This document shows positions 44,574 through 60,245 of a DNA stretch of 64,000 nucleotides, piece after piece (the stretch's first letter is position 1; each line of letters starts with the position of its first letter). The translations under genes and the position numbers were made by a program. The notes under the pieces were generated by a model. That model worked only from the letters and a program-made list of their open reading frames with translations. It ran no database searches and had not been told where the DNA came from. The stretch is taken from positions 124,001-188,000 of the forward strand of contig NZ_JAEACP010000007.1 of NCBI RefSeq assembly GCF_015999335.1. The letters are read 5' to 3'. The stretch is from Tabrizicola soli (GTDB lineage Bacteria > Pseudomonadota > Alphaproteobacteria > Rhodobacterales > Rhodobacteraceae).

Positions 44574-45242
44574 ATGACCCAGAAGATCGCCGCCAAAGTC
44601 GCTCTCGTCACCGGCGCCTCGCGCGGCCTTGGCTCCGCCCTCGCCGGACAACTCGCGCTCCGGGGCTGGCAGGTGGTGGCCGTGGCCCGCACCGTCGGCG
44701 GGCTCGAGGAGCTGGACGACCGGGTGAAGGCGGCGGGCCTGCCGGGGGCGGGCGGGCTGACGCTCGCGCCGATGGATGTGACCAAGGACGATGCGATGCG
44801 GCATCTCTGCCGAAGCATCCACGACCGCTGGGGCGGACTGGGGCTCTGGGTCCATGCCGCGATCCATGCCGCGCCGCTGGCCCCGGCCGGGCATCTCGAC
44901 CAGAAGGACTGGGACAAGTCTCTGACCACCAACACCCGCGCCACCGGGATGCTGATCCCGATGGTCGAGCCGCTTCTGAAGGCGCATCGGGGCACGGCGC
45001 TGTTCCTCGATGATCCGCAGGCGGGAAAGCCCTTCTTCGGCTCCTATGGCGCGACCAAGGCGGCGCAGATCGCGCTGGCGCGAAGCTGGCAGGCCGAGAA
45101 CGCGAAGCACGGCCCCCGCGTGGTGATCGCGACCCCGGCAGGCATGCCGACCGCGACCCGCGCCCGCTTCTTCCCCGGCGAGGACCGGACGAAGCTGGCC
45201 GATCCCCAGGCAGAGGCCGCCCGGATCATCGACGCGCTCTGA
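44574..45242 (+). CDS. Short-chain dehydrogenase/reductase family protein
   Basis: 222 residues from ATG 44574 with AAGGA upstream. Rossmann TGASRGLGSALAGQLA and catalytic YGATK in FFGSYGATKAAQIALA are visible. The usual NNAG motif is replaced by VHAAIH and the catalytic-Ser region reads ALFLDDPQAGK, so the canonical Ser is not obvious. PRVVIATPAGMPTATRARFFPGED follows. Substrate unknown; activity may be altered. Confidence 0.87.
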   Translation: MTQKIAAKVALVTGASRGLGSALAGQLALRGWQVVAVARTVGGLEELDDRVKAAGLPGAGGLTLAPMDVTKDDAMRHLCRSIHDRWGGLGLWVHAAIHAAPLAPAGHLDQKDWDKSLTTNTRATGMLIPMVEPLLKAHRGTALFLDDPQAGKPFFGSYGATKAAQIALARSWQAENAKHGPRVVIATPAGMPTATRARFFPGEDRTKLADPQAEAARIIDAL

Positions 45243-45250
45243 GCCGGGGT

Positions 45251-45294
45251 CAAATTCCTTCGAAGGAATTTGCAAATCCTTTCGAAAGGATTTG
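45251..45294. repeat. Twin palindrome, copy 2 (perfect)
   Basis: Two perfect 22-base palindromes directly abut: arms CAAATTCCTTC / GAAGGAATTTG (45251-45272) and CAAATCCTTTC / GAAAGGATTTG (45273-45294). They lie between the SDR gene and the convergent PLP-lyase gene, whose stop begins 6 bases later. They could end transcription in both directions. Confidence 0.88.
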
Positions 45295-45299
45295 GCGCC

Positions 45300-46406
45300 C
45301 TACCCCGCCAGGGCACCCCTGATTCCGCGCCAAAGCTCCTCGACCGGCTCGATCCCGGCCGACAGGCGGATGAAGCCCTCGGGCACCGCATCGCCCCAGC
45401 GCGCCCGGCGCTCGGCCGAGGAATGGGTCGCGCCGAAGCTGGTGGATTGCGCCAGATAGGGACAGGCGGACAGGAACCGCTCGGCCACCCCGGCATCGGC
45501 CAGGGTGAAGCCGATCAGGAAGCCGCCGTTGGCCATCTGGCTGCCGACCAGCCGGTGCGAGACATCGCCCGGCAGGCCCGGATAGCGCAGCCCGCGCACG
45601 GCGGGATGGGCGGCCAACCGTTCGGCGATGGTCCCGGCCGAGGCGCACATCCGCTCCAGCCGCAGTTCCAGCGTCTCGAGCCCCCGGTGCAGGAGCCAGG
45701 CCTCGAAGGGCCCCAGCACCGCGCCGGAAAGCCGCCGCCAGTCGCCCACCCGGGCCATCAGCACCGGATCGCGCCCCGCGACATGGCCCGCCAAGAGGTC
45801 GGAATGGCCGCCGGGGGCCTTGGTGTCGGCGGCGACGACCAGGTCGGCGCCAAGGTCCAGCGGGCGCTGCAGGAAAGGGGTCATCGTGGTGTTGTCCACC
45901 ACCACCCGCGCCCCCGCCGCACGGGCCCGCGCCGCGACCGCGCCTATGTCGCAGACCTCGAGACCGGGGTTCGACGGCGTTTCCATATAGACCAGCGCCG
46001 CCCCGGTGAAATCGGCCGTGTCATAGCCCGTGGTCGGCAGGAAATCCGCCGCGACGCCCAGCCCGCGCAGGAAATCCGTCGCCAGCACTCGGGTCACGTA
46101 GTAGCCGTCGGCGGGCAGGATCACCCGGTCGCCCGCCTTCAGGCAGGCGAAGAGCGCGGCCGAGATCGCGGCCATGCCCGAGGGGAAGGCGACGGTCTCG
46201 GCTTCCTCCAGCAGCGAGAGCTGCGCCTCGAGCTCGCTCCAGCCCGGATTGCCGGCGCGGGCATAGCCATAGGCCCCGGTGCCGTTCGCGGGCAGATGGA
46301 AGGTCGTGGCCGGGGTGATCGGCGGGGCGACCGGATCGCCGGGGGCGAGGCCCGCCTTGCGGTGGTGCAGAAGCCGCGCGGCGCGGCGGGCGTTGTCATC
46401 GTTCAT
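45300..46406 (-). CDS. Cys/Met-metabolism PLP-dependent enzyme (cystathionine lyase/synthase-like)
   Basis: 368 residues. N-terminal GLAPGDPVAPPITPATTFHLP; FPSGMAAISAALFA; METPSNPGLEVCDI; VVVDNTTMTPF; the PLP lysine in AADTKAPGGHSDLL (the usual ATKY is DTKA here); C-terminal FIRLSAGIEPVEELWRGI. It could cleave or form a C-S bond, or act on another gamma-substituted amino acid. It is the last gene of the methylated-amine operon, 3 bases after the preceding stop. Confidence 0.88.
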   Translation of the reverse strand: MNDDNARRAARLLHHRKAGLAPGDPVAPPITPATTFHLPANGTGAYGYARAGNPGWSELEAQLSLLEEAETVAFPSGMAAISAALFACLKAGDRVILPADGYYVTRVLATDFLRGLGVAADFLPTTGYDTADFTGAALVYMETPSNPGLEVCDIGAVAARARAAGARVVVDNTTMTPFLQRPLDLGADLVVAADTKAPGGHSDLLAGHVAGRDPVLMARVGDWRRLSGAVLGPFEAWLLHRGLETLELRLERMCASAGTIAERLAAHPAVRGLRYPGLPGDVSHRLVGSQMANGGFLIGFTLADAGVAERFLSACPYLAQSTSFGATHSSAERRARWGDAVPEGFIRLSAGIEPVEELWRGIRGALAG

Positions 46407-46409
46407 GGG

Positions 46410-47309
46410 TCACTCCAGCCGGGCCGGAAAGCCGGGCGCGCGCAGGTCGGTGCCGAGAAGGTCCTCGAGCAGTCTGGCGATCATCGGCGACTGCGCCTCG
46501 CCGCCATAGGCCGCCTTCGCGGCGATATAGGTCTGGTGGGTGATCGAGGCGAGATCCAGCGGCACGCCGAATTCCTTGCCGAAGCCGAGGGCGAAGCCCA
46601 GGTCCTTCAGCGCCAGATCCACCGAGAAGGCGATATCGTAGGATCCGTTCAGGATCAGCGCGCCCTCGGTCTCGTGCACGAAGCTGTTGCCGGAGGAGGC
46701 CTGGATCGCCTGCCAGGACTGGCCGAGATCGAGCCCGCCGCGTTTGGCCAGCATCAGCGCCTCGGAGGTGGCCTTGAGATGGATGAAGGCCAGCATGTTG
46801 GTGATGACCTTGATCACCGCCGCAGACCCCAGCGGCCCCATGTGGAAGATGCGCTGGCCGAGGGTCGAGAGCGCCGGGCGGTGCATCTCGAAAAGCTCCC
46901 GCTCGCCGCCAACCAGCACCGTGATCTCGCCCCGCGCGGCGAGATGGACGCCGCCCGTCACCGGCGCCTCGAGAAGCCGCACCTCGCCGGTCCGCGCCAG
47001 GCCGGCGAGCCGCAACACGTCGTCGCGGCCGAGGGTGGAGTTCTCGATCCAGGTGGCGCCGGGTTTCAGGCCGGTCAGGAGTTCCGCCAGCACCGCCTCG
47101 GATGCGGCGGGGGAAGGCAGGCAGGTGAAGACATGGTCCACCTCGCCCGCCAGCGCCGTGACCGAGGGCGCAACCCGCGCCCCCAGCGCCGCCTGCCGTT
47201 CGGCAAGGGCGGGGTTGCGGTCATGGACGGTGACCGCGTGCCCGGCTTTCAGCAGGCTCGCCGCGAGATGGCCGCCCAGATTGCCAAGCCCGATATAGCC
47301 ATAGCGCAT
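46410..47309 (-). CDS. NAD(P)-dependent oxidoreductase, 3-hydroxyisobutyrate dehydrogenase family
   Basis: 299 residues. Rossmann GYIGLGNLGGHLAASLL; substrate loop EAPVTGGVHLAARGEITVLVGG; catalytic Lys in GSAAVIKVITNMLAFIHLKATSEAL; C-terminal LALKDLGFALGFGKEFGVPLDLA. Beta-hydroxyacid dehydrogenases of this family oxidise small 3-hydroxy acids or reduce the semialdehydes. It lies between an aldehyde dehydrogenase and a PLP lyase, suggesting turnover of a carbon skeleton left after demethylation. Confidence 0.91.
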   Translation of the reverse strand: MRYGYIGLGNLGGHLAASLLKAGHAVTVHDRNPALAERQAALGARVAPSVTALAGEVDHVFTCLPSPAASEAVLAELLTGLKPGATWIENSTLGRDDVLRLAGLARTGEVRLLEAPVTGGVHLAARGEITVLVGGERELFEMHRPALSTLGQRIFHMGPLGSAAVIKVITNMLAFIHLKATSEALMLAKRGGLDLGQSWQAIQASSGNSFVHETEGALILNGSYDIAFSVDLALKDLGFALGFGKEFGVPLDLASITHQTYIAAKAAYGGEAQSPMIARLLEDLLGTDLRAPGFPARLE

Positions 47310-47325
47310 CGTTTCCTCCCCGCGC

Positions 47326-47369
47326 CGATTTCCGGACGGAAATCGTGCCGAAATCCGTCCGGATTTCGG
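47326..47369. repeat. Twin palindrome, copy 3
   Basis: Arms CGATTTCCG / CGGAAATCG around GA (47326-47345) match copy 1 at 40465. A second palindrome CCGAAATCCG / CGGATTTCGG (47348-47369) follows after two bases. It fills the spacer between the aldehyde dehydrogenase stop and the oxidoreductase start inside the operon. Confidence 0.85.
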
Positions 47370-48800
47370 TCACTCTCCGTAGCCGACGATGCCCTTGACC
47401 TCGCAGAAGTCATGGATGCCCCAGTCGGCATATTCGCGGCCGTTGCCGGACTGCTTGTAGCCGCCGAAGGGCGCGGAGGTGTCCCAGTCGGGATAGTTCA
47501 GGTTCACGGTCCCGGCGCGCAGCTTGCGGGCCACCGGCTTCGCGTCCTCAACCGGACCGGCGATATAGGCGGCAAGGCCGTAGACCGTGTCGTTGGCCTG
47601 CCGGATCGCGTCCTCGATCGAGTCGTAGGGCTGGATCGCCAGCACCGGGCCGAAGATCTCCTCCTTCGAGATGGTCATCGAATTGACCACATCGCCGAAG
47701 ACCGTGGGCCGCACGAACCAGCCGCGGTTCAGGTCCGCCGGCCGGCCCACGCCGCCGGTGACCAGGGTCGCGCCCTCGTCGATGCCGGCCTGGATCAGGC
47801 GCTGCACCTTATCGAACTGGAGTTTCGAGACCAGCGGGCCAAGGACGGTGGCCTCGTCGCGCGGATCGCCGGTGACGATCGCCTCGGCGGCCTCCTTCGC
47901 GGCGGCCAGCGCCTCGGCCTGCCGGGCGCGGGGCACCAGCATCCGGGTCGGCGCGTCGCAGGACTGGCCGGTGTTCGACATCACCGCGTTGACGCCCGCC
48001 GCCACCGCCTCGGCGATGTCGGCGGTGGGCAGGATGATGTTCGGGCTCTTGCCGCCCAGTTCCTGCGCCACGCGCTTCACCGTGGGGGCGGCGGCGGCGG
48101 CGATGGCGGTCCCGGCGCGGGTCGAGCCGGTGAAGGAGACCATGTCGACCTCCGGGTGCTCCGACATCCGCGCGCCGACCTCGGGACCCGCGCCGTGAAC
48201 CAGGTTGAAGACACCGGGCGGCACGCCCGCATCATGCAGCACCTGCGCGAAGAGCGTGCCGGACAGGGGCGCGATCTCCGACGGTTTCAGCACCATGGTG
48301 CAGCCCGCGATCAGCGCCGGGGCGACCTTGCAGGCGATCTGGTTCATCGGCCAGTTCCAGGGCGTGATCAGCGAGCAGACGCCGATCCCCTCGTAGACGA
48401 TCCGGGTCGAACCCCGGTTGTATTCCCAGACCATCTCCTCGGCGGCCTTGATCGTCGCCTCGATATGGACCTGGCCGGCCCAGGCCTGGGCATTGCGCGC
48501 CCAGGTGATCGGCGCGCCCATCTCGGTCGACATCACTTGCGCGAAATCCTCGTAGCGCGCGTTGTAGACCTCGAGAATCCGCTTCACCAGCGCGATGCGG
48601 TCCTTGACCGGAGTATAGGTCCAGCCGTCGAAGGCCGCGCGGGCGGCCATGATGGCGCGGTCGGCGTCCTCGCGGTTGCCCATGGCGACCTCGCAGACGA
48701 TCTCCTCGGTCGCAGGGTTCTCCACCCCGAGGCGTGCGGTCGAGACCGGATCGACCCACTGGCCATTGATGTAGAATTTCAGCATGTTGGCGGGGATCAT
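47370..48800 (-). CDS. Aldehyde dehydrogenase family protein
   Basis: 476 residues from ATG 48800, with GAGG 6 bases upstream and 7 bases after the MttB-like stop; an ATG at 48785 is also possible. LITPWNWPMNQIACKVAPALIAGCTMVLKPSE for NAD, VSFTGSTRAG, catalytic Glu in VAQELGGKSPNI, catalytic Cys in NTGQSCDAPTRML, and EIFGPVLAIQPYDS. It probably oxidises an aldehyde released in the pathway of the operon, such as a methylated-amine skeleton or formaldehyde adduct. Confidence 0.94.
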   Translation of the reverse strand: MIPANMLKFYINGQWVDPVSTARLGVENPATEEIVCEVAMGNREDADRAIMAARAAFDGWTYTPVKDRIALVKRILEVYNARYEDFAQVMSTEMGAPITWARNAQAWAGQVHIEATIKAAEEMVWEYNRGSTRIVYEGIGVCSLITPWNWPMNQIACKVAPALIAGCTMVLKPSEIAPLSGTLFAQVLHDAGVPPGVFNLVHGAGPEVGARMSEHPEVDMVSFTGSTRAGTAIAAAAAPTVKRVAQELGGKSPNIILPTADIAEAVAAGVNAVMSNTGQSCDAPTRMLVPRARQAEALAAAKEAAEAIVTGDPRDEATVLGPLVSKLQFDKVQRLIQAGIDEGATLVTGGVGRPADLNRGWFVRPTVFGDVVNSMTISKEEIFGPVLAIQPYDSIEDAIRQANDTVYGLAAYIAGPVEDAKPVARKLRAGTVNLNYPDWDTSAPFGGYKQSGNGREYADWGIHDFCEVKGIVGYGE

Positions 48801-48807
48801 TGCGACC

Positions 48808-50361
48808 TCACTTGAAGCAGATGTTGAAGCGGGCGCGGATGGCGCGGTCGATCTCGGGATCGACGCGGCAACCCGCCCTGGCGAGGATAGAGTTCTTGCG
48901 CGCGATGGCCGTGTCAAGCAGCAAGGGCTTGCCGGCCTCGTTCCATTCCTTCGGCGACATGCGGTTGCCGACATTGGGGTAGATGTATTCGGTCTGCATC
49001 AGCTTCAGCGTCTGGTCCGAGCCGAGGTAATGGCCCGGCCCGCCGAGGCAGACCTCCTTCATCGCGTCGAGGCTGGTCGAGTCGGGCGTCACGTCGATCC
49101 CCCGCACCAGCCGCATGGCCTGGCCCAGAAGGTCGTCGCCCAGGACCAGGCTTTCCAGGCAGAAGCCCAGAAGCGAGGCATGCATCCCCACCGCCTCGTA
49201 GCACATGTTGAGGCCCGCGAGCCCGGCCAGCGCATTGGTGATCCCCTGTTCCCACCCGGCCTGCATGTCCGGCAGCTTGGAGTCCGAGATCCCCGAGGCC
49301 GCCCCGCCGGGCAGGTCATAGTAGCGGTGCATCTGCGCGCAGCCGGCGGTCAAAAGCGCCTGTTCGGCGCTGCCGCCCGACATAGCCCCGGTGCGCAGGT
49401 CGCTGACGAAGGGCCAGGTGCCGAAGATCGCCGGCGCGCCGGGCCTGATCGCGTTGACATAGACCACGCCCGCCAGGCATTCGGCCACCGCCTGCACGAT
49501 AGTCAGCGCGATCGGCGCGGGGCTGGTCGCGCCCGCCTGCCCGGCCGAAAGAAGGAGCATCGGCATCCCGCGCCGGATGCAGTCCTCCATGGTGATGCAG
49601 GATTCCTCGGCGAACTTCATCGGCGGGACGACGAAGCAGTTGGAATTCGAAACGAAGGGCCGCTTCAGCCATTTCTCCTCGCCGCCCGCGACCATGTATA
49701 GCATCTCGAAGCAGTCGGCGACATGGGACGGGTCGGAGAAGGAGGTGCCGACATGCTTGGTCGTCCCCGCAAGACAGCCGTAGAGAGTGTTGAGGTCCAT
49801 GTCCTTGTTGTCGGGGACATCGCGGCAGACCATGGTGCGCTGGTAGAAGTGGATGTTGTCCAGGTTGTCCACCAGCCGCGCCGCGTCATACAGGTCCTGC
49901 GCGGTCGAATCGCGATAGTCCAGCGTCACCGGATCGACGATATGCACCGCCGCCCCCGCGGTGCCGTAATGCACATTGGTCCCGGTCAGGTGCAGGTCGT
50001 GCTTCGGGTCGCGGGCATGGAGCGTGATGTCGCGCGCGGCCTTGGCCAACATGTCCTCGACCAAGGCGCGGGGAAAGCGGATGCGGCCGTCGTCGCCCTG
50101 GATCGCTCCCGCCTCGGTCAGAAGCTTCACGCCCGAGGGCGAGGCCTGGGAGAGGCCGATCTGCTCCAGCGCATCCAGCGCGGCGGCATGGATCTGCTGG
50201 ACGCCTGCCTCGGTCAGGGGCTTGTACTGCCCTCCCGGCAGGCCGCCACGGACGGGGCGGATGTCTTCGGCCAGAGGGGCCGCGCGCAGCGCCACCCGGG
50301 CCTGGCGGCCCCCGGAACGGCGGGCGCGGGCGGGTTCGCAGATGTCACCAATCTCGGTCAT
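48808..50361 (-). CDS. Trimethylamine methyltransferase (MttB)-family protein, non-pyrrolysine
   Basis: 517 residues from ATG 50361 with AAGGGG upstream. MttB-family features: TEAGVQQIHAAALDALEQIGL, HYGTAGAAVHIVD, QAGATSPAPIALTIVQAVAECLAGVV, and GGPGHYLGSDQTLKLMQTEYIYP. The frame is uninterrupted, so there is no amber pyrrolysine codon. Relatives demethylate quaternary amines (glycine betaine, proline betaine, carnitine) by passing the methyl to a corrinoid protein. No corrinoid protein (MttC) or RamA gene is in the window, so the acceptor is unknown. Confidence 0.92.
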   Translation of the reverse strand: MTEIGDICEPARARRSGGRQARVALRAAPLAEDIRPVRGGLPGGQYKPLTEAGVQQIHAAALDALEQIGLSQASPSGVKLLTEAGAIQGDDGRIRFPRALVEDMLAKAARDITLHARDPKHDLHLTGTNVHYGTAGAAVHIVDPVTLDYRDSTAQDLYDAARLVDNLDNIHFYQRTMVCRDVPDNKDMDLNTLYGCLAGTTKHVGTSFSDPSHVADCFEMLYMVAGGEEKWLKRPFVSNSNCFVVPPMKFAEESCITMEDCIRRGMPMLLLSAGQAGATSPAPIALTIVQAVAECLAGVVYVNAIRPGAPAIFGTWPFVSDLRTGAMSGGSAEQALLTAGCAQMHRYYDLPGGAASGISDSKLPDMQAGWEQGITNALAGLAGLNMCYEAVGMHASLLGFCLESLVLGDDLLGQAMRLVRGIDVTPDSTSLDAMKEVCLGGPGHYLGSDQTLKLMQTEYIYPNVGNRMSPKEWNEAGKPLLLDTAIARKNSILARAGCRVDPEIDRAIRARFNICFK

Positions 50362-51187
50362 TGGGGGTCCCCTTGAGAAGAAGTGCGTCGATCTCGTCGC
50401 CACTGGCGGCGCCGGCGAGGGGGGCGAAACTGCCCTGCCCCAGCATCGCGCCGACGGAATCGCGAATGGCGGCATGGGCGAGGCGGGCGATCTGGCTGCC
50501 GGTGGAGATGCGGCGGATGCCCATGGCGGCAAGCCCGGCCACGGTCATGGCCTTCAGCGGCCCGGCGGCCAGGGCGTTGACGGGTTTCGTGACGGCGGCC
50601 AGCACCTGCGCCAGCTCCCCGCGGCCGGGCGGAACCGGCAGGTAAAGAAGGTCGGCCCCCGCCGCCTCGAAGGCCTGCAGGCGGCGGATGCCCTCGGCCA
50701 GGGTATAGGTGCCGTGCATCACCCCGTCGGCGCGGGCGCAGAAGACGAAGGGGCGGCCAAGCGACCGGGCCGCTGCCGCCCCGGCCCGGATCCGTTCGAC
50801 CGCAAGGCCGAAGTCATGGGCGGGCGCGCCGGGGGCGATCCGGGTATCCTCGACGCTGATCCCGGAAAGCCCCGCCTCACCCGCCAGCCGCACGGTTTCG
50901 GCCACCACCTCGGGGGCATCGCCGAAGCCGTTCTCGAAATCGCCCGAGACCGGCAGGCCGGTCGCGGCCAGCAGGTCCTGGGCATGGGCCAATGCCTCGT
51001 CGCGGCTGACCCCGCCCAGGTCGGGGCGGCCGAGGGTGAAGGCATGCGCGGCGGAGGAGGTCGCCAGCGCCCTCGCCCCCAGCGCCGCCATCATCCGCGC
51101 GCTGCCCCGGTCCCAGGGGTTCGGAATGACGAAACAGCCCGACTGGTGCAGGTCGTGAAAGGCCTGGTGCCGGGCTGCGAGCGTCAT
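50345..51187 (-). CDS. Isocitrate lyase/PEP mutase superfamily protein
   Basis: 280 residues. FHDLHQSGCFVIPNPWDRGSARMMAALGARALATSS, LPVSGDFENGFGDAPEVVAETVRLAGEAGLSGISVEDT, and FCARADGVMHG are typical of the carboxy-PEP mutase/oxaloacetate-decarboxylase branch. The Asp and Glu in GDFENGFG likely bind magnesium. Its 3' end overlaps the mttB-like gene by 17 bases and its 5' end overlaps the dehydrogenase gene by 4, so it is firmly in the operon. Its exact reaction is unknown; a C-C bond lyase is the family norm. Confidence 0.9.
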   Translation of the reverse strand: MTLAARHQAFHDLHQSGCFVIPNPWDRGSARMMAALGARALATSSAAHAFTLGRPDLGGVSRDEALAHAQDLLAATGLPVSGDFENGFGDAPEVVAETVRLAGEAGLSGISVEDTRIAPGAPAHDFGLAVERIRAGAAAARSLGRPFVFCARADGVMHGTYTLAEGIRRLQAFEAAGADLLYLPVPPGRGELAQVLAAVTKPVNALAAGPLKAMTVAGLAAMGIRRISTGSQIARLAHAAIRDSVGAMLGQGSFAPLAGAASGDEIDALLLKGTPNDRDW

Positions 51188-53622
51188 GCGCGGACCCTTT
51201 CGCTGGCCGGATCGTGCATCGGCGCCAGGCTGGCGATCGCCTCGTGCCGCTGGCCCGCGACCTCGATCTCGTAGCGCGAGGACAGGATGTCGTCCTCGCT
51301 CTGCCCCTTGGCCGGGACATAGCCCATGCCGATGGCGCCGCCAAGGAAATGGCCGTAGTTGCCAGAGGTGACGGGCCCGACGATCCGCCCGTCGCGGACG
51401 ATGGCTTCGTTGTGGAACAGAAGCGGCTCGGGGTCTTTCAGGCGGAACTGGACCATGCGGCGGTCCAGCCCGGCCTGTTCCTTGCGCAGCACCGCGTCGC
51501 GGCCGATGAAGGCCGGTTTCTTGCGGCTGACGGTGAAGCCGAGGCCCGCCTCCAGCACATGATCCTCGTCGGTGATGTCATGGCCCCAGTGCCGATAGGC
51601 CTTCTCGATCCGGCAGCTGTCCAGCGTGTGGAGCCCGCAGAGCTTCAGGTCCGGCTGCGCCTCGATCAGCGCCTCGAAGACATGGGCGGTCTGGTCGGCC
51701 GAGACGTAAAGCTCCCAGCCCAGCTCGCCGACATAGGTCACGCGATGGGCGCGGGCGATCCCGAGGCCGATCTCGATTTCCCGCGCGGTGCCAAAGGGAT
51801 GCGCGTCATTGCTGAAGTCGTTGGGCGAGACCTTGGCCAGCACCTCGCGCGATTGCGGGCCCATGAGGCAGAGGACCGATTCCGCCGCCGTCACATCGGT
51901 GATGACCGCGAAATCCTCGCCGACCCGGGCGCGCATCCAGGCGAGGTTGCGCTGCAGGGTCGCACCCGGGACCACCGCGAGATAGGCGGTCCCGGACAGG
52001 CGCGTCACGGTAAGATCGGCCTCGATACCCCCGTTTTCATTCAGGAACATCGTATAGACGATCCGCCCCGGCGCCACATCCATCTGCGCCGAGGAGATCC
52101 GGTTCAGGAAGGCGCAGGCGTCGCGCCCCTCCACCCGGATCTTGCCGAAGCTGGTCATGTCGAAGAGACCCGCAGCCTCACGCACCGCCATGTGTTCGGC
52201 CTTCTGGTTCTCGAACCAGTTCTGCCGCTTCCAGGAGTAGCGGTATTCCCGCTCCTGCCCCTCGTTCGCGAACCAGTTCGCGCGCTCCCAGCCCGCCACC
52301 TCGCCGAAGACCGCGCCGCGCGCCTTCAGATGGTCGTGGATCGGCGAGCGCCGCACCCCCCGCGCGGTCTCGACCTGGCGATAGGGGAAATGGTCGGCGT
52401 AAAGAAGGCCCAGCGTCTCGGTCACCCGCTCCTTCAGGTAGCGGCGGTTCTTCTGGAAGGGCTGGGCGCGGCGGATATCGACCTCCCAGAGGTCGAAGGG
52501 CGCCTCGCCCTCGGTGATCCAATGCGCCAGCGCCTGCCCCGCACCGCCCGAGGAGACGATGCCGATCGAGTTGTAGCCGGCCGCGATCCAATAGCCCTTC
52601 AGCTCCGGCGCCTCGCCCAGGTAGTAGCGATCATCGGGGGTAAAGCTTTCGGGACCGTTGAAGAAGGTGTGGATGCCCGCGGTCTCGAACATCGGCATCC
52701 GGTTGGTCGCCATCTCGAGGATCGGCATGAAATGCTCCCAGTCCTCGGGCAGCGTGTCGAACTCGAAGTCCTTGCGGATGCCCTCCATCCCCCAGGGCTT
52801 GGCCTTCGGCTCGAAGGCGCCCAGCATCATCTTGCCGGCGTCCGACTTGTAATAGGCGCATTCGTCGGGAACCCGCAGCACCGGCAGGTCGCCCAGGCCC
52901 TGCACCGGCTCGGTCACCAGGTAGAAATGCTCGCAGGCGTGCAAGGGCAGCGTGACGCCGTTCTGGCCCGCCAGCTCGCGCCCCCACATGCCGCCGCAGT
53001 TGATCACCACATCCGCCTCGATATGGCCCGGCCCCGCCTCGCCTACGTAATCCACCCCGGTCACCCGGCCGTTCACGGTGGTCACGCCGGTGACGCAGGT
53101 CATCTCGTGGATCTTCGCGCCCCGCATCCGCGCGCCCTTGGCCAGCGCCATGGCGATGTTGGCCGGATCGCACTGGCCGTCCAGCGGCAGCGCCACCGCG
53201 CCGACCACGCCGTCGATGTTCAGATGCGGATATTTCGCCTTGGCCTCGGACGGGCTGATCTCATGCACCTCCACATCGAAGATGCGCGCGACGGTGGCCT
53301 GGCGCAGCAACTCTTCATGGCGCTCCTTGGTCAAGGCCACAGAAATCGAGCCGACCTGCTTCATGCCGGTGGCAACCCCGGTCTCCGCCTCCAGCCCGCG
53401 ATACAAATCCGCCGAATACTTCGCCAGCCGCGTCATGTTCGCCGACCCGCGCAGCTGTCCGATCAACCCCGCCGCGTGCCAGGTGGTGCCGGAAGTCAGC
53501 TTGCGCCGCTCCAGCAGCACCACATCGGTCCAGCCCGCCTTGGCCAGGTGATAGGCCACCGAACAGCCCGAGACCCCGCCTCCGATGACAACTGCGCGCG
53601 CCTTGGTTGGAATCCCGTTCAT
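51184..53622 (-). CDS. FAD-dependent demethylating dehydrogenase with GcvT domain (dimethylglycine/sarcosine dehydrogenase-like), paralogue A
   Basis: 812 residues. N-terminal FAD domain: VVIGGGVSGCSVAYHLAKAGW, then SGTTWHAAGLIGQLRGSANMTRLAKYS, typical of the family that oxidises N-methyl groups. The C-terminal half is GcvT-like (EAAGLFDMTSFGKIRVEGRDACAFL; YTMFLNENGGIEADLTVTRL; YVGELGWELYVSAD; KPAFIGRDAVL), which passes the carbon to tetrahydrofolate. The product would be methylene-THF. It overlaps the PEP-mutase-like gene by 4 bases. Confidence 0.93.
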   Translation of the reverse strand: MNGIPTKARAVVIGGGVSGCSVAYHLAKAGWTDVVLLERRKLTSGTTWHAAGLIGQLRGSANMTRLAKYSADLYRGLEAETGVATGMKQVGSISVALTKERHEELLRQATVARIFDVEVHEISPSEAKAKYPHLNIDGVVGAVALPLDGQCDPANIAMALAKGARMRGAKIHEMTCVTGVTTVNGRVTGVDYVGEAGPGHIEADVVINCGGMWGRELAGQNGVTLPLHACEHFYLVTEPVQGLGDLPVLRVPDECAYYKSDAGKMMLGAFEPKAKPWGMEGIRKDFEFDTLPEDWEHFMPILEMATNRMPMFETAGIHTFFNGPESFTPDDRYYLGEAPELKGYWIAAGYNSIGIVSSGGAGQALAHWITEGEAPFDLWEVDIRRAQPFQKNRRYLKERVTETLGLLYADHFPYRQVETARGVRRSPIHDHLKARGAVFGEVAGWERANWFANEGQEREYRYSWKRQNWFENQKAEHMAVREAAGLFDMTSFGKIRVEGRDACAFLNRISSAQMDVAPGRIVYTMFLNENGGIEADLTVTRLSGTAYLAVVPGATLQRNLAWMRARVGEDFAVITDVTAAESVLCLMGPQSREVLAKVSPNDFSNDAHPFGTAREIEIGLGIARAHRVTYVGELGWELYVSADQTAHVFEALIEAQPDLKLCGLHTLDSCRIEKAYRHWGHDITDEDHVLEAGLGFTVSRKKPAFIGRDAVLRKEQAGLDRRMVQFRLKDPEPLLFHNEAIVRDGRIVGPVTSGNYGHFLGGAIGMGYVPAKGQSEDDILSSRYEIEVAGQRHEAIASLAPMHDPASERVRA

Positions 53623-53633
53623 TGCCGTTCCCC

Positions 53634-53690
53634 GTAGGGTGCGCTACAGCGCACCGCGCTTCAAAATGGTGCGCTATAGCGCACCCTACG
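53634..53690. repeat. GTAGGGTGCGC paired palindromes
   Basis: Left copy GTAGGGTGCGCTACAGCGCACC (53634-53655) and right copy GGTGCGCTATAGCGCACCCTAC (53668-53689) face each other across 12 bases. The right one provides the TAG stop (53686-53688) of the upstream dehydrogenase gene. The unit matches 35256-35338. Confidence 0.85.
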
Positions 53691-56112
53691 CCTTGATCCG
53701 TTCGTTTTTCGCATCCCAGGCCGGGCCGTCCGGTAGAACGGTCGCCTTCACCCGCTCGCCGAAGATTTCCACCTCGACCTCCGTCCCGGCCACCGCCAGA
53801 TCCGCCCGCAGCATCCCCAGCGCCAGCGAATGCCCGACCCGGTAGCCCCATGCGCCCGAGGTGGTCTCGCCCACCACCGCGCCCTGATGCCAGAGCGTTG
53901 ACATGTAGGGCGCATCCGCCTCGCCCGCCTCGACCTTGAGCGAGACGAAGCGCTTCTTCACGCCCCGCTGCTTCTCGGCGGCAAGCGCCGCCTTGCCGGG
54001 GAAATCATGGGGCCAGTCGATGAACCGCTCGAGCCCGCCCTCCAGCAGCGAATAGTCGGTAGACAGGTCGCCCTTCCAGGCGCGGTAGCCCTTCTCGATC
54101 CGCAAGCTGTTCAGCGCCTTCATCCCGAAGGGCTTCGCGCCCCCCGCGAGCAGTGCGTCGTAGATCGCCGGCGCGTCGTCCCGGTCGCAATGGATTTCCC
54201 AGCCGAGTTCCCCGGCGAAGGAAACCCGCACCAGCGCCACGTCCTTGCCCGCGACCTTCGCGGCATACTGGACCGAGAGCCAGGGCAGCGTCAGCTCGGC
54301 CTCGCTGATCCCCGCCAAGAGGTCGCGCGCCTTCGGGCCGGTGACGATGAAGCAATGGATCTTGTCGGTCCAGTCCTCCAGCGTGACGCCTTCCGGCAGG
54401 CCCCTGCGCAGGATGTCGGCGTCGTGGCTTTGCGCGACGGCGGCGGTGATCACGCCCACGTCCTCGTCGGAGAACGGCAGGCAGGTCATTTCGGTGACGA
54501 TCCGGCCGCGGTCGTCGGCGAAATACAGCAGCCCCGTGCGACCCGGCTGCGGCAGTTTCGAGGCGGTGAGCGAGGCGAGATGCGCCCTTGCCCCCGGCCC
54601 GGTCAGCCGCAGGCGGGTGAAGCCCGGCAGGTCGAGAACGCCCACCCCGTCCCGCACCGCCTCGCATTCGGCCTTGATACGGGCCTCCCACGGGCCCGCC
54701 CTGCCCCAGGTCTGCGTCGCCTCCCAGGAGGTATCGTCGCCGGCTTGCGCGAACCATTCCGCCCGTTCCCAGCCGTTGTAGGGCGCGAACTGGGCGCCCA
54801 TCGCTTTCAGCCTGTCATGCACCGGCGAGAGCTTGCGGTCGGGCGCTGCGGGCCAGCGGGCCATCGGGAAATGCATGCCGTATTCGTGGCCGTAGACCTC
54901 TTTCCCCTTGGCCACCAGATAGTCGTGATCCTCCCAGCCGGTGAAGCGGCGCGGGTCGCAGGACCACATGTCCCATTCGGTGCCGCCCTCCGTCACCCAT
55001 TCCGCCAGCACCTTGCCCGCGCCACCCGCCTGGCAGATGCCGAAGGTGAAGACGCAGGCCTCGAAGGCGTTCGGAACGCCGGGCATCGGGCCGATCAGCG
55101 GGTTGCCGTCGGGCGTGTAGGGGATCGGGCCGTTGATCACCTTGGTGAGGTTGGCCTTCTGCAGGAGCGGCACCCGCGCCATCGCGTCGTTGATGTGCCA
55201 TTCGATCCGGTCCAGATCGTCGGGGAACAGCTGGAAGGAGAAATCCTCCGGCATCGGGTCGTCCGGCGTGGCCCAATGCGCCCGGCAGGGGTTCTCGTAG
55301 GGGCCGAGGTTGAAGCCCATCTTCTCCTGCCGGAGATAGTAGGAGGAGTCCACATCGCGCAGAAGCGGCAGCTTGTGGCCCTCGGCCTTCGACCAGGCCT
55401 CCAGCTCGGGGATGGTGTCGAACAGGAGGTACTGGTGGCTCATCACCATCATCGGCACCCGGCGGCCGAACATCGCGCCGACATGGGCCGCATAATAGCC
55501 GCCCGCGTTGACGACATATTCGGCGCGGACCTCGCCCTTCGGCGTCGACAGCACCCATTCGCTCCCGGTCCAGCGCGCCGCCGTCACCGGGCAGAACCGC
55601 TCGATCCGCGCGCCCAGCTGCCGCGCCCCGGCGGCCAGCGCCTGGGTCAGCTGTGCCGGGTCGATGTCGCCGTCATAGGGGTCATACAGGGCGCCCTCCA
55701 GATCATGCGTCTCGAGGAAGGGATATTTCGAGCGGATCTCCTCGGGCGACAGGATCGACAGGTCCATCCCCTGATAGCGCCCCATGCCCTGGACGCGCCT
55801 GAACTCCTGCATCCGCTCGCGGCTGTGACCCAGCCGGACCGAGCCGGTGACATGGTAGTTCATCGGATAATCCACCGCCTCGCCCAGGCCCCGGTAGAGG
55901 CCGGCCGAATAGCGCTGCATGTTCATGATCGACCAGGAGGCCGAGAAGGTCGGCACGTTCCCCGCCGCATGCCAGGTCGAGCCCGCCGTCAGCTCGTTCT
56001 TCTCCAGCAGGAGGCTGTCCGTCCAGCCCGCCTTCGCCAGATGATAAAGCGCCGAGGCCCCGACCGCCCCCCCCCCGATGATCACCACCCGCGCCTGCGC
56101 AAATTCCGCCAT
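53686..56112 (-). CDS. FAD-dependent demethylating dehydrogenase with GcvT domain, paralogue B
   Basis: 808 residues, same architecture as the neighbour at 51184 but quite different in sequence. FAD motif VVIIGGGAVGASALYHLAKAGW, then AGSTWHAAGNVPTFSASWSIMNMQRYSAGLYRGL. The C-terminal GcvT part has DGVGVLDLPGFTRLRLTGPGARAHL, SFAGELGWEIHCDRDDAP, and EKGYRAWKGDLSTDYSLLEGGL. The first gene of the minus-strand operon, divergent from the LysR gene at 56321. Two paralogues would suit two successive N-demethylations. Confidence 0.93.
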   Translation of the reverse strand: MAEFAQARVVIIGGGAVGASALYHLAKAGWTDSLLLEKNELTAGSTWHAAGNVPTFSASWSIMNMQRYSAGLYRGLGEAVDYPMNYHVTGSVRLGHSRERMQEFRRVQGMGRYQGMDLSILSPEEIRSKYPFLETHDLEGALYDPYDGDIDPAQLTQALAAGARQLGARIERFCPVTAARWTGSEWVLSTPKGEVRAEYVVNAGGYYAAHVGAMFGRRVPMMVMSHQYLLFDTIPELEAWSKAEGHKLPLLRDVDSSYYLRQEKMGFNLGPYENPCRAHWATPDDPMPEDFSFQLFPDDLDRIEWHINDAMARVPLLQKANLTKVINGPIPYTPDGNPLIGPMPGVPNAFEACVFTFGICQAGGAGKVLAEWVTEGGTEWDMWSCDPRRFTGWEDHDYLVAKGKEVYGHEYGMHFPMARWPAAPDRKLSPVHDRLKAMGAQFAPYNGWERAEWFAQAGDDTSWEATQTWGRAGPWEARIKAECEAVRDGVGVLDLPGFTRLRLTGPGARAHLASLTASKLPQPGRTGLLYFADDRGRIVTEMTCLPFSDEDVGVITAAVAQSHDADILRRGLPEGVTLEDWTDKIHCFIVTGPKARDLLAGISEAELTLPWLSVQYAAKVAGKDVALVRVSFAGELGWEIHCDRDDAPAIYDALLAGGAKPFGMKALNSLRIEKGYRAWKGDLSTDYSLLEGGLERFIDWPHDFPGKAALAAEKQRGVKKRFVSLKVEAGEADAPYMSTLWHQGAVVGETTSGAWGYRVGHSLALGMLRADLAVAGTEVEVEIFGERVKATVLPDGPAWDAKNERIKA

Positions 56113-56207
56113 GACCGCCTCCCCTGAACGCCGCCACTATCCCCCGCCCGGCTCCCGCTTTCAATTCGGCCGGACCTCGGGTATTGATCGACAACCCCGA
56201 TCAGCAC

Positions 56208-56298
56208 CTTCCTCTTGACGGAAATATTCCACGGGTGGGCCGGTGCGTTTCGCCACTGGTTCAAGAAACCACCGGCTTGGGGGGTATGAAACCCCCGG
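56208..56298 (+). repeat. Mosaic intergenic repeat, copy 6 (G-rich hairpin type, with an insertion)
   Basis: CTTCCTCTTG, GAAATATTCC, ACGGG, then about 45 extra bases containing their own inverted repeat (CCGGTG..CACCGG), then GGGGGGTATGAAACCCCC. The insertion interrupts an element otherwise like copies 1, 2 and 4. It ends 22 bases before the LysR start and faces the same way. Confidence 0.65.
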
Positions 56299-56320
56299 CG
56301 GCCAGCAACAGGCGCGACCC

Positions 56321-57175
56321 ATGCAGATCGACCTCCTCGACACCTTCCTCGACCTTGCCGAGACCCGCAGCTTCCACCGCACCGCCGAGCGGCTGCGGAT
56401 CACCCAGTCCACCGTCTCGGCCCGCGTCGCCTCGCTGGAGGAAGCGGTGGGCTCGCGGCTCTTCGACCGCTCCCGCGCCGGGACCGACCTCACCCCGGAA
56501 GGCAAGCGGTTCGAGCCGCACGCCCGTGCCCTGCGCCACGAATGGAACCAGGCCCGCCGCCGCATCCGCATCCCGCAGGGCGCCGAGCAGTTGCTGCGGC
56601 TGGGCATCCAGAACGACCTCGCCGCGGTCTATCTGGGCGACTGGGTGGCCGAGTTCCGCGCCGCCCTGCCGCAGACCGCCTTCTACATCGAGCCGGATTA
56701 TTCCAACCAGATGTGTGCCGACCTCTTGACCGGCATCCTCGACTTCGCGGTGATGTTCTCGCCGAAGCCGCACCCGGACCTGCATTTCGAAAGCGTGGGC
56801 GACGTGATCTACCGGATGGTCTCGACCGAGACGGCGCGGCTGGCCGGCGTGCGGCCCGACCGCTTCGTCTTCGCCCATTTCTCGCCCGCCTTCGAGGAGA
56901 TGCACCGCCAGCTCACCCCCGATCTGGCCGCCTCGCCGGTCTCGGTCGGGCAGTCGGGATCGGTGGTCTCGCTGCTGACGGCGATGGGGGGATCGGGATA
57001 TGTGCTGGAAAAAACCCTGGGCGAGCTGGTCGCGGCGGGCCGGTTCATGGCGGTGGAGGACGCGCCGGAGCTGCGCCAGCCGGTCTTCGCGGCGATCCAC
57101 ATCCGGCACCGGACCCAGCCCCTGCACCGCCGGCTGACCCAGCTGGTCGCCGGCCATTTCCGCGCGGCCAGGTAG
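56321..57175 (+). CDS. LysR-family transcriptional regulator of the methylated-amine operon
   Basis: 284 residues from ATG 56321 (MQIDLLDTFLDLAETRSFHRTAERLRITQSTVSARVASLEEAVGSRLFDRSRAG). The effector domain begins near residue 90. It lies divergent from the operon starting at 56112, so it is the likely regulator. Its TAG stop (57173-57175) falls in a GTAGGGTG palindrome. An in-frame ATG at 56243 would place a basic non-homologous leader in front of the HTH. Confidence 0.92.
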   Translation: MQIDLLDTFLDLAETRSFHRTAERLRITQSTVSARVASLEEAVGSRLFDRSRAGTDLTPEGKRFEPHARALRHEWNQARRRIRIPQGAEQLLRLGIQNDLAAVYLGDWVAEFRAALPQTAFYIEPDYSNQMCADLLTGILDFAVMFSPKPHPDLHFESVGDVIYRMVSTETARLAGVRPDRFVFAHFSPAFEEMHRQLTPDLAASPVSVGQSGSVVSLLTAMGGSGYVLEKTLGELVAAGRFMAVEDAPELRQPVFAAIHIRHRTQPLHRRLTQLVAGHFRAAR

Positions 57176-57195
57176 GGTGGGCAATATTGCCCACC
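57172..57195. repeat. GTAGGGTGGGC palindrome, single copy
   Basis: GGTGGGCAAT and ATTGCCCACC form a perfect 20-base palindrome (57176-57195), preceded by GTAG holding the LysR stop codon. It lies between convergent genes. Confidence 0.8.
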
Positions 57196-57276
57196 TCATG
57201 CTTGCCCGCGCGCGGCGGATGCGACAGCCTGCATGATTTCAATGCCTTGCCTGCGGACATTAACCTTTTGGCAAGG

Positions 57277-59226
57277 CTACTTCCCGCCCGGCGAAGCCCG
57301 GGATTGCGCCCAGCGCAGGAGCAGGTGGTCGGCCATCAGCCCCATGAAGGCCACCGCCAGCCCCAGGACGAAGCCCTTGCCCACGTCGGCCGAGGAGAGC
57401 GCGCGCTGCATCTCCTGGCCGAGGTCCTGGGTGCCGATGAAGGCGGCGATGATCACCATGAACAGCGCGAACATGATCGACTGGTTCGCCCCAACGACCA
57501 GCGTCGGCAGCGCCAGCGGCAGCTTCACATGCCACAGGAGCTGGCCCCGGCTCGCCCCCGACATCTGCGCCGATTCCACGATCTCGGGCGGGACCCCGCG
57601 CAGGCCCTCGATCGTGTAGCGGACGATGGGCACGGTGGCGAAGACCATGACGGCGGCGATGACGGCGACGTCGTTCACGCCGAACAGCATGATGACCGGG
57701 ATCAGGTAGATGAAGCTGGGGAAGGTCTGGGCCGTGTCGCAGACCAGCAGGAAGCGCCGCGCGCGGGTCTCGTTCGCGGCCCCGACCAGCCCGAGCGGCA
57801 CGCCGATCATCAGCGCCAGCGCGACCGCGACGAAGACGGTATAGGCGGTGATCATCGCCCGGTCCCACCAGCCCGACAGCGCGATGGGCAAGGCGAAGGC
57901 GAGGCAGACCAGCGCCGAGCGCAGGCCGCCGGTCCGCCAGCCCAGGCCCGCCAGCGCCAGAAGCACGGCCGAGGTCGGCAGCCAGAGGAAGGCGTCGCGC
58001 AGCGGGATCAGGACCCAGGTGATCAGGAACCAGCGCAGCCAGTCGGTCACCGGGTCGATCAGGTCGATGACCCGGCCCACCACGGCATCGACCGGCCCGG
58101 CCAGGCTGAGGGCCTGTTTCCGCTCGACCTCAGCGAAATAGGGATGCAGCGCGGCCAGCGCGAAACCAAGCGCGACGAGGCCCAGCCAGATCGCCAGCAG
58201 GCGGTGGCGATGGAGCCAGGGCCCTTCGGCATGGGCGGGCTGTTTCACCGCCCAGGCCTTGGACATCCGGTCCAGCACGATGGCCAGAAGCACGATAGTC
58301 ACGCCGATTTCGACCGACAGCCCGATCTTCAGCGCCTGCAGGAGTTGCAGCAGCTTCTGCCCCAGTCCCGGCATGCCGATGAAGCTGGCCAGGACCACCA
58401 TGGCCAGGCTTTGCATGATCACCTGGTTGACGCCGATCAGGATCTCGGTCCGGGCCGAGGGCAGCCGGACGCGGGTCATCAGCTGCAGGCGGGTCGCGCC
58501 GCTCATCTTGCCGCTCTCGATGATCTCGGGCGGGACCGAGCGCAGGCCGAGCAGCGTCATGCGGATCATCGGCGGGACCGAGAAGATCACCGTGACGATG
58601 GCCCCGGCCTTGGGTCCGACGCCGATGAAGACGACGACCGGGATCATGTAGGCGAAATGCGGCAGGGATTGCGCGATGTTGAGGATGGGGTTCAGGATCC
58701 GTTCGGCCAGCCGGTAGCGCCAGGCGAGCGTGCCGAGGGCGAGGCCGAGGAGGACGGAGAGCGGCGCGGCGACGACGATGACCGACAGCGTCTCCATTGC
58801 CCATTTCCACTGGCCCATGACGGCGATCCAGACGAAGGTCCCGGCGGCCAGCGTGGCCAGCCGCCAGCCGCCCAGCGCATGGCCCGCCATCCCGGCGGTG
58901 GCGGCGATCACCACCCAGGGGATCGGCCCGACATTCGGCCAGCGCGACTTGCCGTAAAGCATGTTCGCGGTCACATCGAGGCAGAATTCCACCGCGTCCG
59001 AGACGGCGCGGGTCAGGGCCATCAGGCCAAGGTCGTCGCGGGCGAAGGCGAAGGCGGCGTTGATCCAGTCGGCGAAGGGCAGGATGAGGCCCTCCGGCAG
59101 GCGCAGCAACCCGGCGGGAAGCGCGTTGCGGAAGAGGACCAGCACCAGCGCGGCCAGCAGGATCGCCTGCGCGATCCGCTTCTGCTCCAGTCGGAACGGG
59201 GCTTGCGGGAGAGTGGCCGTCATCAT
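57277..59226 (-). CDS. ABC permease of betaine/TMAO type, internal tandem duplication
   Basis: 649 residues, about twice the usual ProW length, with two copies of the binding-protein-dependent permease module. Copy 1 coupling loop: PPEIIESGKMSGATRLQLMTRVRLPSARTEIL (about residues 230-260). Copy 2: PPEIVESAQMSGASRGQLLWHVKLPLALPTLV (about 550-580). Each is preceded by ILNIAQSLPHFAYMIPVV or CDTAQTFPSFIYLIPVI. About a dozen or more membrane helices overall. Known TMAO transporters of marine Rhodobacterales (TmoW) are, as I recall, of this fused kind. Its start overlaps the ATPase stop by 4 bases. Confidence 0.91.
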   Translation of the reverse strand: MMTATLPQAPFRLEQKRIAQAILLAALVLVLFRNALPAGLLRLPEGLILPFADWINAAFAFARDDLGLMALTRAVSDAVEFCLDVTANMLYGKSRWPNVGPIPWVVIAATAGMAGHALGGWRLATLAAGTFVWIAVMGQWKWAMETLSVIVVAAPLSVLLGLALGTLAWRYRLAERILNPILNIAQSLPHFAYMIPVVVFIGVGPKAGAIVTVIFSVPPMIRMTLLGLRSVPPEIIESGKMSGATRLQLMTRVRLPSARTEILIGVNQVIMQSLAMVVLASFIGMPGLGQKLLQLLQALKIGLSVEIGVTIVLLAIVLDRMSKAWAVKQPAHAEGPWLHRHRLLAIWLGLVALGFALAALHPYFAEVERKQALSLAGPVDAVVGRVIDLIDPVTDWLRWFLITWVLIPLRDAFLWLPTSAVLLALAGLGWRTGGLRSALVCLAFALPIALSGWWDRAMITAYTVFVAVALALMIGVPLGLVGAANETRARRFLLVCDTAQTFPSFIYLIPVIMLFGVNDVAVIAAVMVFATVPIVRYTIEGLRGVPPEIVESAQMSGASRGQLLWHVKLPLALPTLVVGANQSIMFALFMVIIAAFIGTQDLGQEMQRALSSADVGKGFVLGLAVAFMGLMADHLLLRWAQSRASPGGK

Positions 59227-60245
59227 GCCGCCGGTCCCAGCAGCAGGTCGAGCGCCGCCTTGCGGTCCAGAAGCCCGGCGATGCGGCCCCTGTCGGCCAG
59301 CGGGATCAGCGCCCGGCTGTCGCCGACGATCCGGCGGGCAAGCGCATGCAGCGTCTCGCCGGCCGGCAAGGGCTCGCCGTCCACGGGACGGCCATCCACC
59401 GGCAGCGCCAGCGCGCCCGCATGGACGACGCGGGTGCGGTCGATGGCCTCGGTGAACTTGGCGACATAGGGTGTCGCGGGGGCCATCACGATGCGCTCCG
59501 GCGTGTCGATCTGTTCCACCGCGCCGTCCTTCATGATCGCGATGCGGTCGGCCAGGCGCAGGGCCTCGTCGAAGTCATGGGTGATGAAGACGATGGTCTT
59601 GGCCAGCATCCCCTTCAACCGCAGGAATTCGTCCTGCATCTCGCGCCGGATCAGCGGGTCGAGGGCCGAGAAGGGTTCGTCCAGGAACCAGATGTCGGGT
59701 TCCACCGCCAGACTGCGCGCGATGCCGACGCGCTGCTGCTGGCCGCCGGACAGCTCGCGCGGGAAATAGCCCTCGCGGCCCTTGAGGCCGACCAGCGCCA
59801 GCATGTCGCGGGCGCGGGCGATGCGCGAGGCGCGGTCCTGGCCGCGCATCTCCAGCGGGAAGGCCACGTTCTCCAGCGCGGTGCGGTGGGGAAGCAGGCC
59901 GAAGCTCTGGAAGACCATGCCCATCTTGCGGCGGCGCAGGTCGATCAGCTCGGTCTCGCCGAGGCGGCCGATGTCGCGCCCCTCGACCGCGACGGTGCCG
60001 GCGGTGATGTCCAGCAACCGCGCCAGGCAGCGCACCAGCGTCGACTTGCCGGAACCGGAGAGGCCCATGACCACCAGCATCTCGCCGCGCCTGATGTCCA
60101 GCGACACGTCGCGGACGGCGGCAATATGGCCCGTGGCGCGCAGGTCCTCCATCGTGGTCTGCGGCATCAGGCGCAGCCGTTCCGGCCGGTCGCCGAACAC
60201 CTTCCAGACATTCCGGCAGGAAATCACCACATCATCTGCTGTCAT
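59223..60245 (-). CDS. ABC transporter ATP-binding protein, ProV/betaine type
   Basis: 340 residues. Walker A GLSGSGKSTLVRC, signature LSGGQQQRVGIARSL, Walker B WFLDEPFSALDPL, and switch FITHDFDEALRLADRI. The C-terminal 90 residues are a degenerate CBS-type regulatory region (VVHAGALALPVDGRPVDGEPLPAGETLHALARRIVG), as in ProV. It drives import of a quaternary amine or TMAO with the adjacent permease and binding protein. Confidence 0.93.
   Translation of the reverse strand: MTADDVVISCRNVWKVFGDRPERLRLMPQTTMEDLRATGHIAAVRDVSLDIRRGEMLVVMGLSGSGKSTLVRCLARLLDITAGTVAVEGRDIGRLGETELIDLRRRKMGMVFQSFGLLPHRTALENVAFPLEMRGQDRASRIARARDMLALVGLKGREGYFPRELSGGQQQRVGIARSLAVEPDIWFLDEPFSALDPLIRREMQDEFLRLKGMLAKTIVFITHDFDEALRLADRIAIMKDGAVEQIDTPERIVMAPATPYVAKFTEAIDRTRVVHAGALALPVDGRPVDGEPLPAGETLHALARRIVGDSRALIPLADRGRIAGLLDRKAALDLLLGPAA

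Follow-up and report, generated by a model that had tools for sequence, protein, structure and literature searches.

The closest described relative of the locus studied here is the MtgBCD/split methionine synthase hub of Ruegeria pomeroyi DSS-3, in which several MttB-family methyltransferases accompany one each of MtgC, MtgD, MtgE and RamA. This hub serves both methionine synthesis and glycine betaine demethylation; mtgC and mtgD mutants require methionine, and supplying it does not enable them to use glycine betaine (PMC12478193). N-osmolytes raise the levels of two MttB proteins of R. pomeroyi, SPO2134 and SPO2108; as many as seven PF06253 proteins occur per genome, and the authors expect further substrates; the Results describe mutants of mtgC and mtgD and none of an MttB gene (PMC12478193). 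Eubacterium limosum, by its description, is alike in having several MttB enzymes for one corrinoid protein, with MtpB, MtcB and MtyB sharing MtqC and MtqA, but it is an anaerobe and the substrates are proline betaine, carnitine and gamma-butyrobetaine (PMC12155760). Here we analysed a 64,000-nucleotide window of Tabrizicola soli (contig NZ_JAEACP010000007.1, positions 124,001 to 188,000), in which a minus-strand operon of seven genes (45300–56112 of the window) includes an mttB gene and no gene for a corrinoid protein. The operon seems to borrow the single shared B12 protein of the cell. We consider it likely to be a LysR-type-regulated catabolic operon for a quaternary amine, in which MttB uses the shared MtgC-like protein and two flavoproteins act afterwards.

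The first-pass annotation of this stretch described seven minus-strand genes with overlaps or very short gaps, and all seven open reading frames (ORFs) were found, with spacings of at most 63 bp. Its family assignments were upheld by Pfam and NCBIfam profiles and by sequence matches in the PDB. The mttB product (48808–50361, minus strand) matched PF06253 at 373 bits (cut-off 25) over positions 1–490 of 500. It is a non-pyrrolysine enzyme, as had been proposed: the frame holds no in-frame TAG, and Ile358, invariant in an alignment of 17 sequences, aligns with the pyrrolysine (position 334) of the methanogen enzyme. The protein reached 338 bits against TIGR02369, the pyrrolysine trimethylamine methyltransferase, under the cut-off of 525. 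It also matched Desulfitobacterium hafniense MtgB (PDB 2qne and 9yce; E about 1e-55) with approximately 29% identity over most of its length.

The two flavoproteins are encoded by fad1 (53686–56112) and fad2 (51184–53622), both on the minus strand, and are putative N-demethylating dehydrogenases of the FAD/GcvT type. Each has the domain order DAO, FAO_M, GCV_T and GCV_T_C, as in the dimethylglycine/sarcosine dehydrogenase type, and they make up two of the ten PF16350 proteins in the T. soli genome. Fad1 aligned over nearly its full length with PDB 5l46 (546 bits) and is most like dimethylglycine dehydrogenase (DMGDH), whilst Fad2, of the DMGDH/dimethylglycine oxidase superfamily, gave nearly full-length alignments with 5l46 (428 bits) and 1pj5 (390 bits). 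These matches include the FAD- and folate-binding domains, the identity of the substrates being a prediction from sequence. The divergent lysR (56243–57175, plus strand; PF00126 and PF03466) encodes the probable regulator of the operon. A possible promoter before fad1 (56136–56164, minus strand) is a weak site found by consensus match, one of two promoter-like sites in 45000–57400 against a shuffle mean of 0.9.

That the operon lacks a corrinoid gene, as already pointed out in the first-pass annotation, was confirmed. The genome-wide search for corrinoid proteins and RamA which it had suggested found one MtgC-like protein and one RamA-like activase, both encoded outside the operon. In total, the T. 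soli genome (4.68 Mb, 57 contigs) encodes eight MTTB proteins, one protein with the corrinoid cap domain PF02607, one RACo-type activase and two pterin-binding proteins, by eye one FolP-like and one MtgD-like. Of two homocysteine-methyltransferase-type proteins, one is encoded about 1.5 kb from the corrinoid gene. Beyond the Pfam hits, the labels FolP, MtgC, MtgD and MtgE were given by eye, and on these grounds a corrinoid protein, a pterin methyltransferase and an activase are all encoded in this genome. The kinds of part are thus those of the R. pomeroyi hub, with the difference that the operon of the window MttB also encodes two flavoproteins and putative skeleton-processing enzymes. One genome-wide hub, as shown genetically in R. 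pomeroyi, readily explains the local absence of a corrinoid gene, and because its parts are present in this genome a corrinoid-independent enzyme need not be assumed. The puzzle of the missing partner is most simply explained by the hub published in 2025.

Related loci were compared in two sets. Set A held the best 80 of 586 relatives from a pattern search, and so favours close kin, together with one Sinorhizobium meliloti and one Shinella plasmid locus. Set B held 40 chosen stretches of up to 20 kb, with MttB mostly 62–74% identical, from 87 orthologue-bearing genomes. A gene was scored as present if it matched anywhere in the stretch over half its length and above an identity threshold of 44–60%, and loci with short flanks were ineligible. 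No MtgC-like gene was found in the eligible stretches of set A (0/64) or set B (0/40), 0/104 together, indicating that the orphan state of MttB is usual. The exception was G133, a genome outside both sets fetched for another purpose, with an MtgC-like gene about 5 kb from its mttB. Amongst eligible set A loci, lysR was present in 58/66, fad1 and fad2 each in 53/66, and hib, encoding a dehydrogenase of the 3-hydroxyisobutyrate dehydrogenase type, in 58/70. The co-occurrence of these four genes with mttB exceeds chance.

The enzyme set suggests a substrate with three N-methyl groups and a primary amine as product. In the order we propose, MttB would move the first methyl group to Co(I) of the MtgC-like corrinoid protein, whose gene lies outside the operon, an MtgD-like protein would hand it to tetrahydrofolate (THF) to give methyl-THF, and the RamA-type activase would repair the cobalt. 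The two DMGDH-type flavoproteins would oxidise the tertiary and then the secondary amine, with both methyl groups passing to methylene-THF and a primary amine left. The HIB-type dehydrogenase may act on the remaining skeleton, which in some lineages an aldehyde dehydrogenase, a cystathionine gamma-lyase-type enzyme, a phosphoenolpyruvate (PEP)-mutase-like protein, a choline-dehydrogenase-like enzyme or an aminotransferase may also process. Stepwise stripping of methyl groups from a methylated amine had been proposed from the sequence alone and is well supported by this enzyme set. The further proposal that the skeleton is then broken is plausible for HIB, often found with mttB in close relatives, but weaker for the lyase, the aldehyde dehydrogenase and the PEP-mutase-like protein, which are variable.

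These genes complete the operon on the minus strand. The frequent partner hib (46410–47309; PF03446 and PF14833) encodes an NAD(P) dehydrogenase whose closest solved chain is 3cky, a 2-hydroxymethylglutarate dehydrogenase. The accessory gene ald (47370–48800) encodes an aldehyde dehydrogenase (ALDH; PF00171, 487 bits) resembling betaine aldehyde dehydrogenase, which scored 408 bits against TIGR01804 (cut-off 669) and fell under the cut-off of all 25 models listed. The accessory cgl (45300–46406; PF01053 Cys/Met lyase) encodes a cystathionine gamma-lyase-type pyridoxal phosphate enzyme (CGL), which at 510 bits passed the cut-off of 440 for NCBIfam PRK07582. The product of the accessory pep (50345–51187; PF13714 PEP_mutase, 223 bits) belongs to the PEP-mutase/isocitrate-lyase superfamily and is closest amongst solved chains to the lyase/mutase 4lsb. 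Counted from the chosen starts, 63 bp separate fad1 and fad2, fad2 and pep overlap by 4 bp and pep and mttB by 17 bp, and the following gaps are 7 bp (mttB/ald), 60 bp (ald/hib) and 3 bp (hib/cgl).

The variability of the accessory genes raises the possibility that two units are adjacent here, a demethylation unit that recurs in relatives (lysR-fad1-fad2-mttB-hib) and a group of metabolic genes, CGL especially, that are unrelated to it. In set A, ald (37/70), cgl (24/70) and pep (9/66) were less frequent, and set B had pep in 9/40 and neither ald nor cgl (0/40 each). CGL (E<=1e-90) was present in 17 of 149 Rhodobacteraceae genomes, T. soli included, and adjoined mttB in five, the others carrying it elsewhere or having no window-type mttB, that is, no orthologue of the window gene. 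However, the gaps of 3–60 bp suggest co-transcription here, and in Leisingera, too, an MttB of 42% identity has a PRK07582-type CGL at a distance of about 4 kb. A division into two units is a real possibility, albeit one we do not favour, and for its first unit it is compatible with the quaternary amine operon proposed above. The Leisingera caerulea locus (L096, 5553–17402) places its MttB beside a Rieske-type oxygenase, a possible reductase, a GMC enzyme, a mandelate-racemase-family protein, the CGL and an acetolactate-synthase-like enzyme.

Gene content around mttB varied further between relatives. For this comparison, gene families came from a home-made ORF caller, which picked up some antisense ORFs. 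An aspartate-aminotransferase-type aminotransferase was on the same stretch in 25/40 set B loci, and in two relatives (L106 and L111) an aminotransferase lay between fad1 and fad2, followed by pep and mttB. A choline-dehydrogenase-like GMC enzyme was found in or beside the operon of some relatives, as were, by eye, hydantoinase-like, medium-chain dehydrogenase/reductase quinone-reductase-like and homocysteine-methyltransferase-like genes. The set B labels cysS, cimA, nrdJ and outer-membrane protein were likewise given by eye. In L076 and L079 a gene labelled by eye as a homocysteine S-methyltransferase was inserted between fad1 and fad2, and a similar gene lies elsewhere in the T. soli genome (L103). 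The Shinella plasmid had the order lysR-fad1-fad2-pep-mttB and the S. meliloti Ak57 plasmid lysR-fad1-fad2-mttB, with fad2 there matched in three overlapping pieces and perhaps broken. Elsewhere in T. soli (C34:70615-77247; L006, L157 and L158), a second MttB, which groups with MtgB, is encoded with two FAD/GcvT proteins in divergent orientation. On the R. pomeroyi megaplasmid (L091, 11929–21249), the gene of a 47%-identical MttB shares an operon with those of two FAD/GcvT proteins, an Xsc-like thiamine pyrophosphate enzyme and a class III aminotransferase.

The nearest characterised enzyme, D. hafniense MtgB, shares PF06253 and the lack of pyrrolysine with the window MttB, and is described together with its own MtgC and MtgA (PMC12478193). 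The two nevertheless fell into separate groups. In a tree of 23 hand-chosen sequences (the T. soli paralogue L001, its open frame having been read short, was left out), window-type MttB proteins formed a group with 100/100 support, whilst MtgB and five T. soli paralogues (L002–L006) grouped together (100/99) with the window MttB outside; the branch of paralogue L008 was very long. Docking predicts that MtgB contacts glycine betaine through Y94, N199, R309 and H345 (PMC6855144). All four are replaced in the window MttB. Across 124 window-type sequences (the window MttB, sets A and B and L151), the corresponding residues were G (124/124), F (124/124), G (123/124) and E (123/124). L002–L006 kept N199 in 5/5, R309 in 4/5 and H345 in 5/5, and the divergent L008, the other paralogue compared, kept none of the four contacts. 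Since the predicted Asn, Arg and His contacts are Phe, Gly and Glu, the window MttB probably does not recognise its substrate in the manner predicted for glycine betaine in MtgB. In Methanosarcina barkeri MttB, Gly110 and Tyr364 hold a water beside the pyrrolysine (PMC9842639), and by a by-eye alignment count the window MttB has Gly136 and Tyr388 at these positions, both invariant in the 17 sequences. A structure prediction for 17 sequences (the window MttB and 16 close relatives) had a mean predicted local distance difference test score of 52.5, too poor for use of the fold or pocket. From the alignments, we read the window-type pocket as probably conserved for a different specificity and not as a loss of function.

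The strongest evidence for a betaine-related substrate is that glycine betaine, choline and carnitine raise the level of SPO2134 (MtgB2) (PMC12478193). This protein is probably the orthologue of the window MttB, judged by neighbourhood only, because the type of SPO2133, the gene upstream of mttB and the distance to mtgC agree. SPO2133 is an outer-membrane protein of 178 aa (PMC9938194), and an outer-membrane protein gene (191 aa in the representative) lies directly upstream of window-type mttB in 14/40 set B loci. In G043 and G031, MtgC is encoded 26–28 kb from the window-type mttB, compatible with SPO2160, and in other genomes it is farther off, closer (G133) or on a different contig.

Glycine betaine itself must accordingly be weighed as the substrate. 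The operon would then be a second glycine-betaine operon, with MttB as MtgB2, Fad1 as dimethylglycine dehydrogenase, Fad2 as sarcosine dehydrogenase and the neighbouring transporter as the supplier. The rise of the inferred orthologue on N-osmolytes, the closeness of Fad1 to DMGDH and the betaine/choline-type ATP-binding cassette (ABC) transporter adjoining the operon all speak for it. By contrast, at least 123/124 members have G/F/G/E in place of the predicted glycine-betaine ligands, which the cell's own paralogues L002–L006 mostly keep, and HIB, ALDH and CGL have no evident role between betaine and glycine. The transporter genes (57277–60245), convergent with lysR, encode a 649-aa permease with two transport domains and a ProV-like ATPase, and by eye a binding protein gene lies farther downstream on the same strand. 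As the permease and ATPase genes were found near mttB in none of the eligible relatives (0/64 in set A and 0/40 in set B), we rejected the transporter as a member of the system. We think glycine betaine a rather unlikely substrate; it is compatible with use of the shared hub and competes over the substrate alone.

Other substrates were also considered. Taurine betaine was rejected, as the thiamine pyrophosphate enzyme of the R. pomeroyi megaplasmid scored under the Xsc cut-offs (401 against 620 bits and 394 against 676 bits). Trimethylhomoserine from the betaine lipid DGTS, with CGL as a gamma-lyase, has chemistry in its favour, but we rejected it as the leading candidate because linkage of CGL to mttB is rare and the predicted carboxylate ligands are absent from the pocket. 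For homarine, a literature search turned up nothing usable. DGTA, another betaine lipid, has as its head group hydroxymethyl-trimethyl-beta-alanine, an acid of the form HO-CH2-CH(R)-COOH. Such acids are the type of substrate oxidised by HIB-family dehydrogenases. The orthologous group might conceivably represent a new MttB substrate class for a hydroxylated quaternary amine without the carboxylate geometry of glycine betaine, such as the DGTA head group, which we put forward as a long shot.

The distribution of window-type MttB was followed across the 149 Rhodobacteraceae genomes, one per genus by genus codes, with a threshold of at least 62% identity and pieces counted. It was present in 87/149, these being the 91 genomes with a match minus G025, G059, G119 and G125, where the best match was below 50%. 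MtgC was found in 140/149, in G119 as a 65-aa piece. Open frames of 910–1293 aa indicate a MetH-type corrinoid protein in six of the nine MtgC-negative genomes. None of these six has a window-type MttB, compared with 87/143 of the others (Fisher p = 0.0045, uncorrected for relatedness). G118, an 84% complete genome amongst the six, encodes MtgD and may belong to the hub group; with it excluded the count is 0/5 (p = 0.011). Three genomes, G008, G068 and G136 (82, 76 and 97% complete), have a window-type MttB and no MtgC that we could find. PF02607 gave one weak match in G008 and none in G068 or G136. All three hold MtgD at 74–84% identity, so a missing contig is the likely explanation.

Several observations weigh against an operon for a quaternary amine served by the shared hub. 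Presence of MtgC did not significantly predict window-type MttB (84/140 against 3/9, p = 0.16), and the genomes compared are kin, hence not independent samples. G136 is 97% complete and has a window-type MttB with neither MtgC nor a PF02607 match, although an assembly gap is possible. The hub proteins took their names from domains and context and not from alignment with their R. pomeroyi counterparts. Most set B mttB genes lack the partners seen in close kin (fad1 and fad2 6/40 each, hib and lysR 1/40 each). The MtgB pocket residues are docking predictions and not taken from a ligand-bound structure, and Y94 is kept in just 2/5 of the MtgB-like paralogues. Lastly, the induction of SPO2134 also fits glycine betaine itself. 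The first-pass annotation had offered direct, corrinoid-independent methyl transfer as an alternative, for which the 104 stretches without an MtgC-like gene, the distinct pocket and the near-complete G136 could be cited, but we found no positive support for it and consider it highly improbable, given the hub parts in T. soli and MtgC in 140/149 family genomes, the service of several MttB proteins by one corrinoid protein reported for R. pomeroyi and E. limosum (PMC12478193, PMC12155760), the conservation of the M. barkeri Gly110/Tyr364 positions and the MtgD of G136.

New here is an MttB orthologous group whose pocket is nearly invariant and differs from that of MtgB, and which 87 of the 149 Rhodobacteraceae genomes sampled carry. 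Searches of the openly available literature, betaine-lipid work included, returned the hub paper and no study that we recognised as describing this group. The question of its substrate is directly testable, because the group has a distinct pocket, an operon and, in a marine model amenable to genetics, the probable orthologue SPO2134. The orphan mttB of T. soli is no oddity: the group extends through these genomes and into some rhizobia, and a corrinoid gene is almost never close by. This pattern accords with a single B12 protein shared by many substrate-specific methyltransferases, and the operon in close relatives predicts three successive demethylations. If the DGTA head group were the substrate, the operon would serve to break down the head groups of algal betaine lipids.

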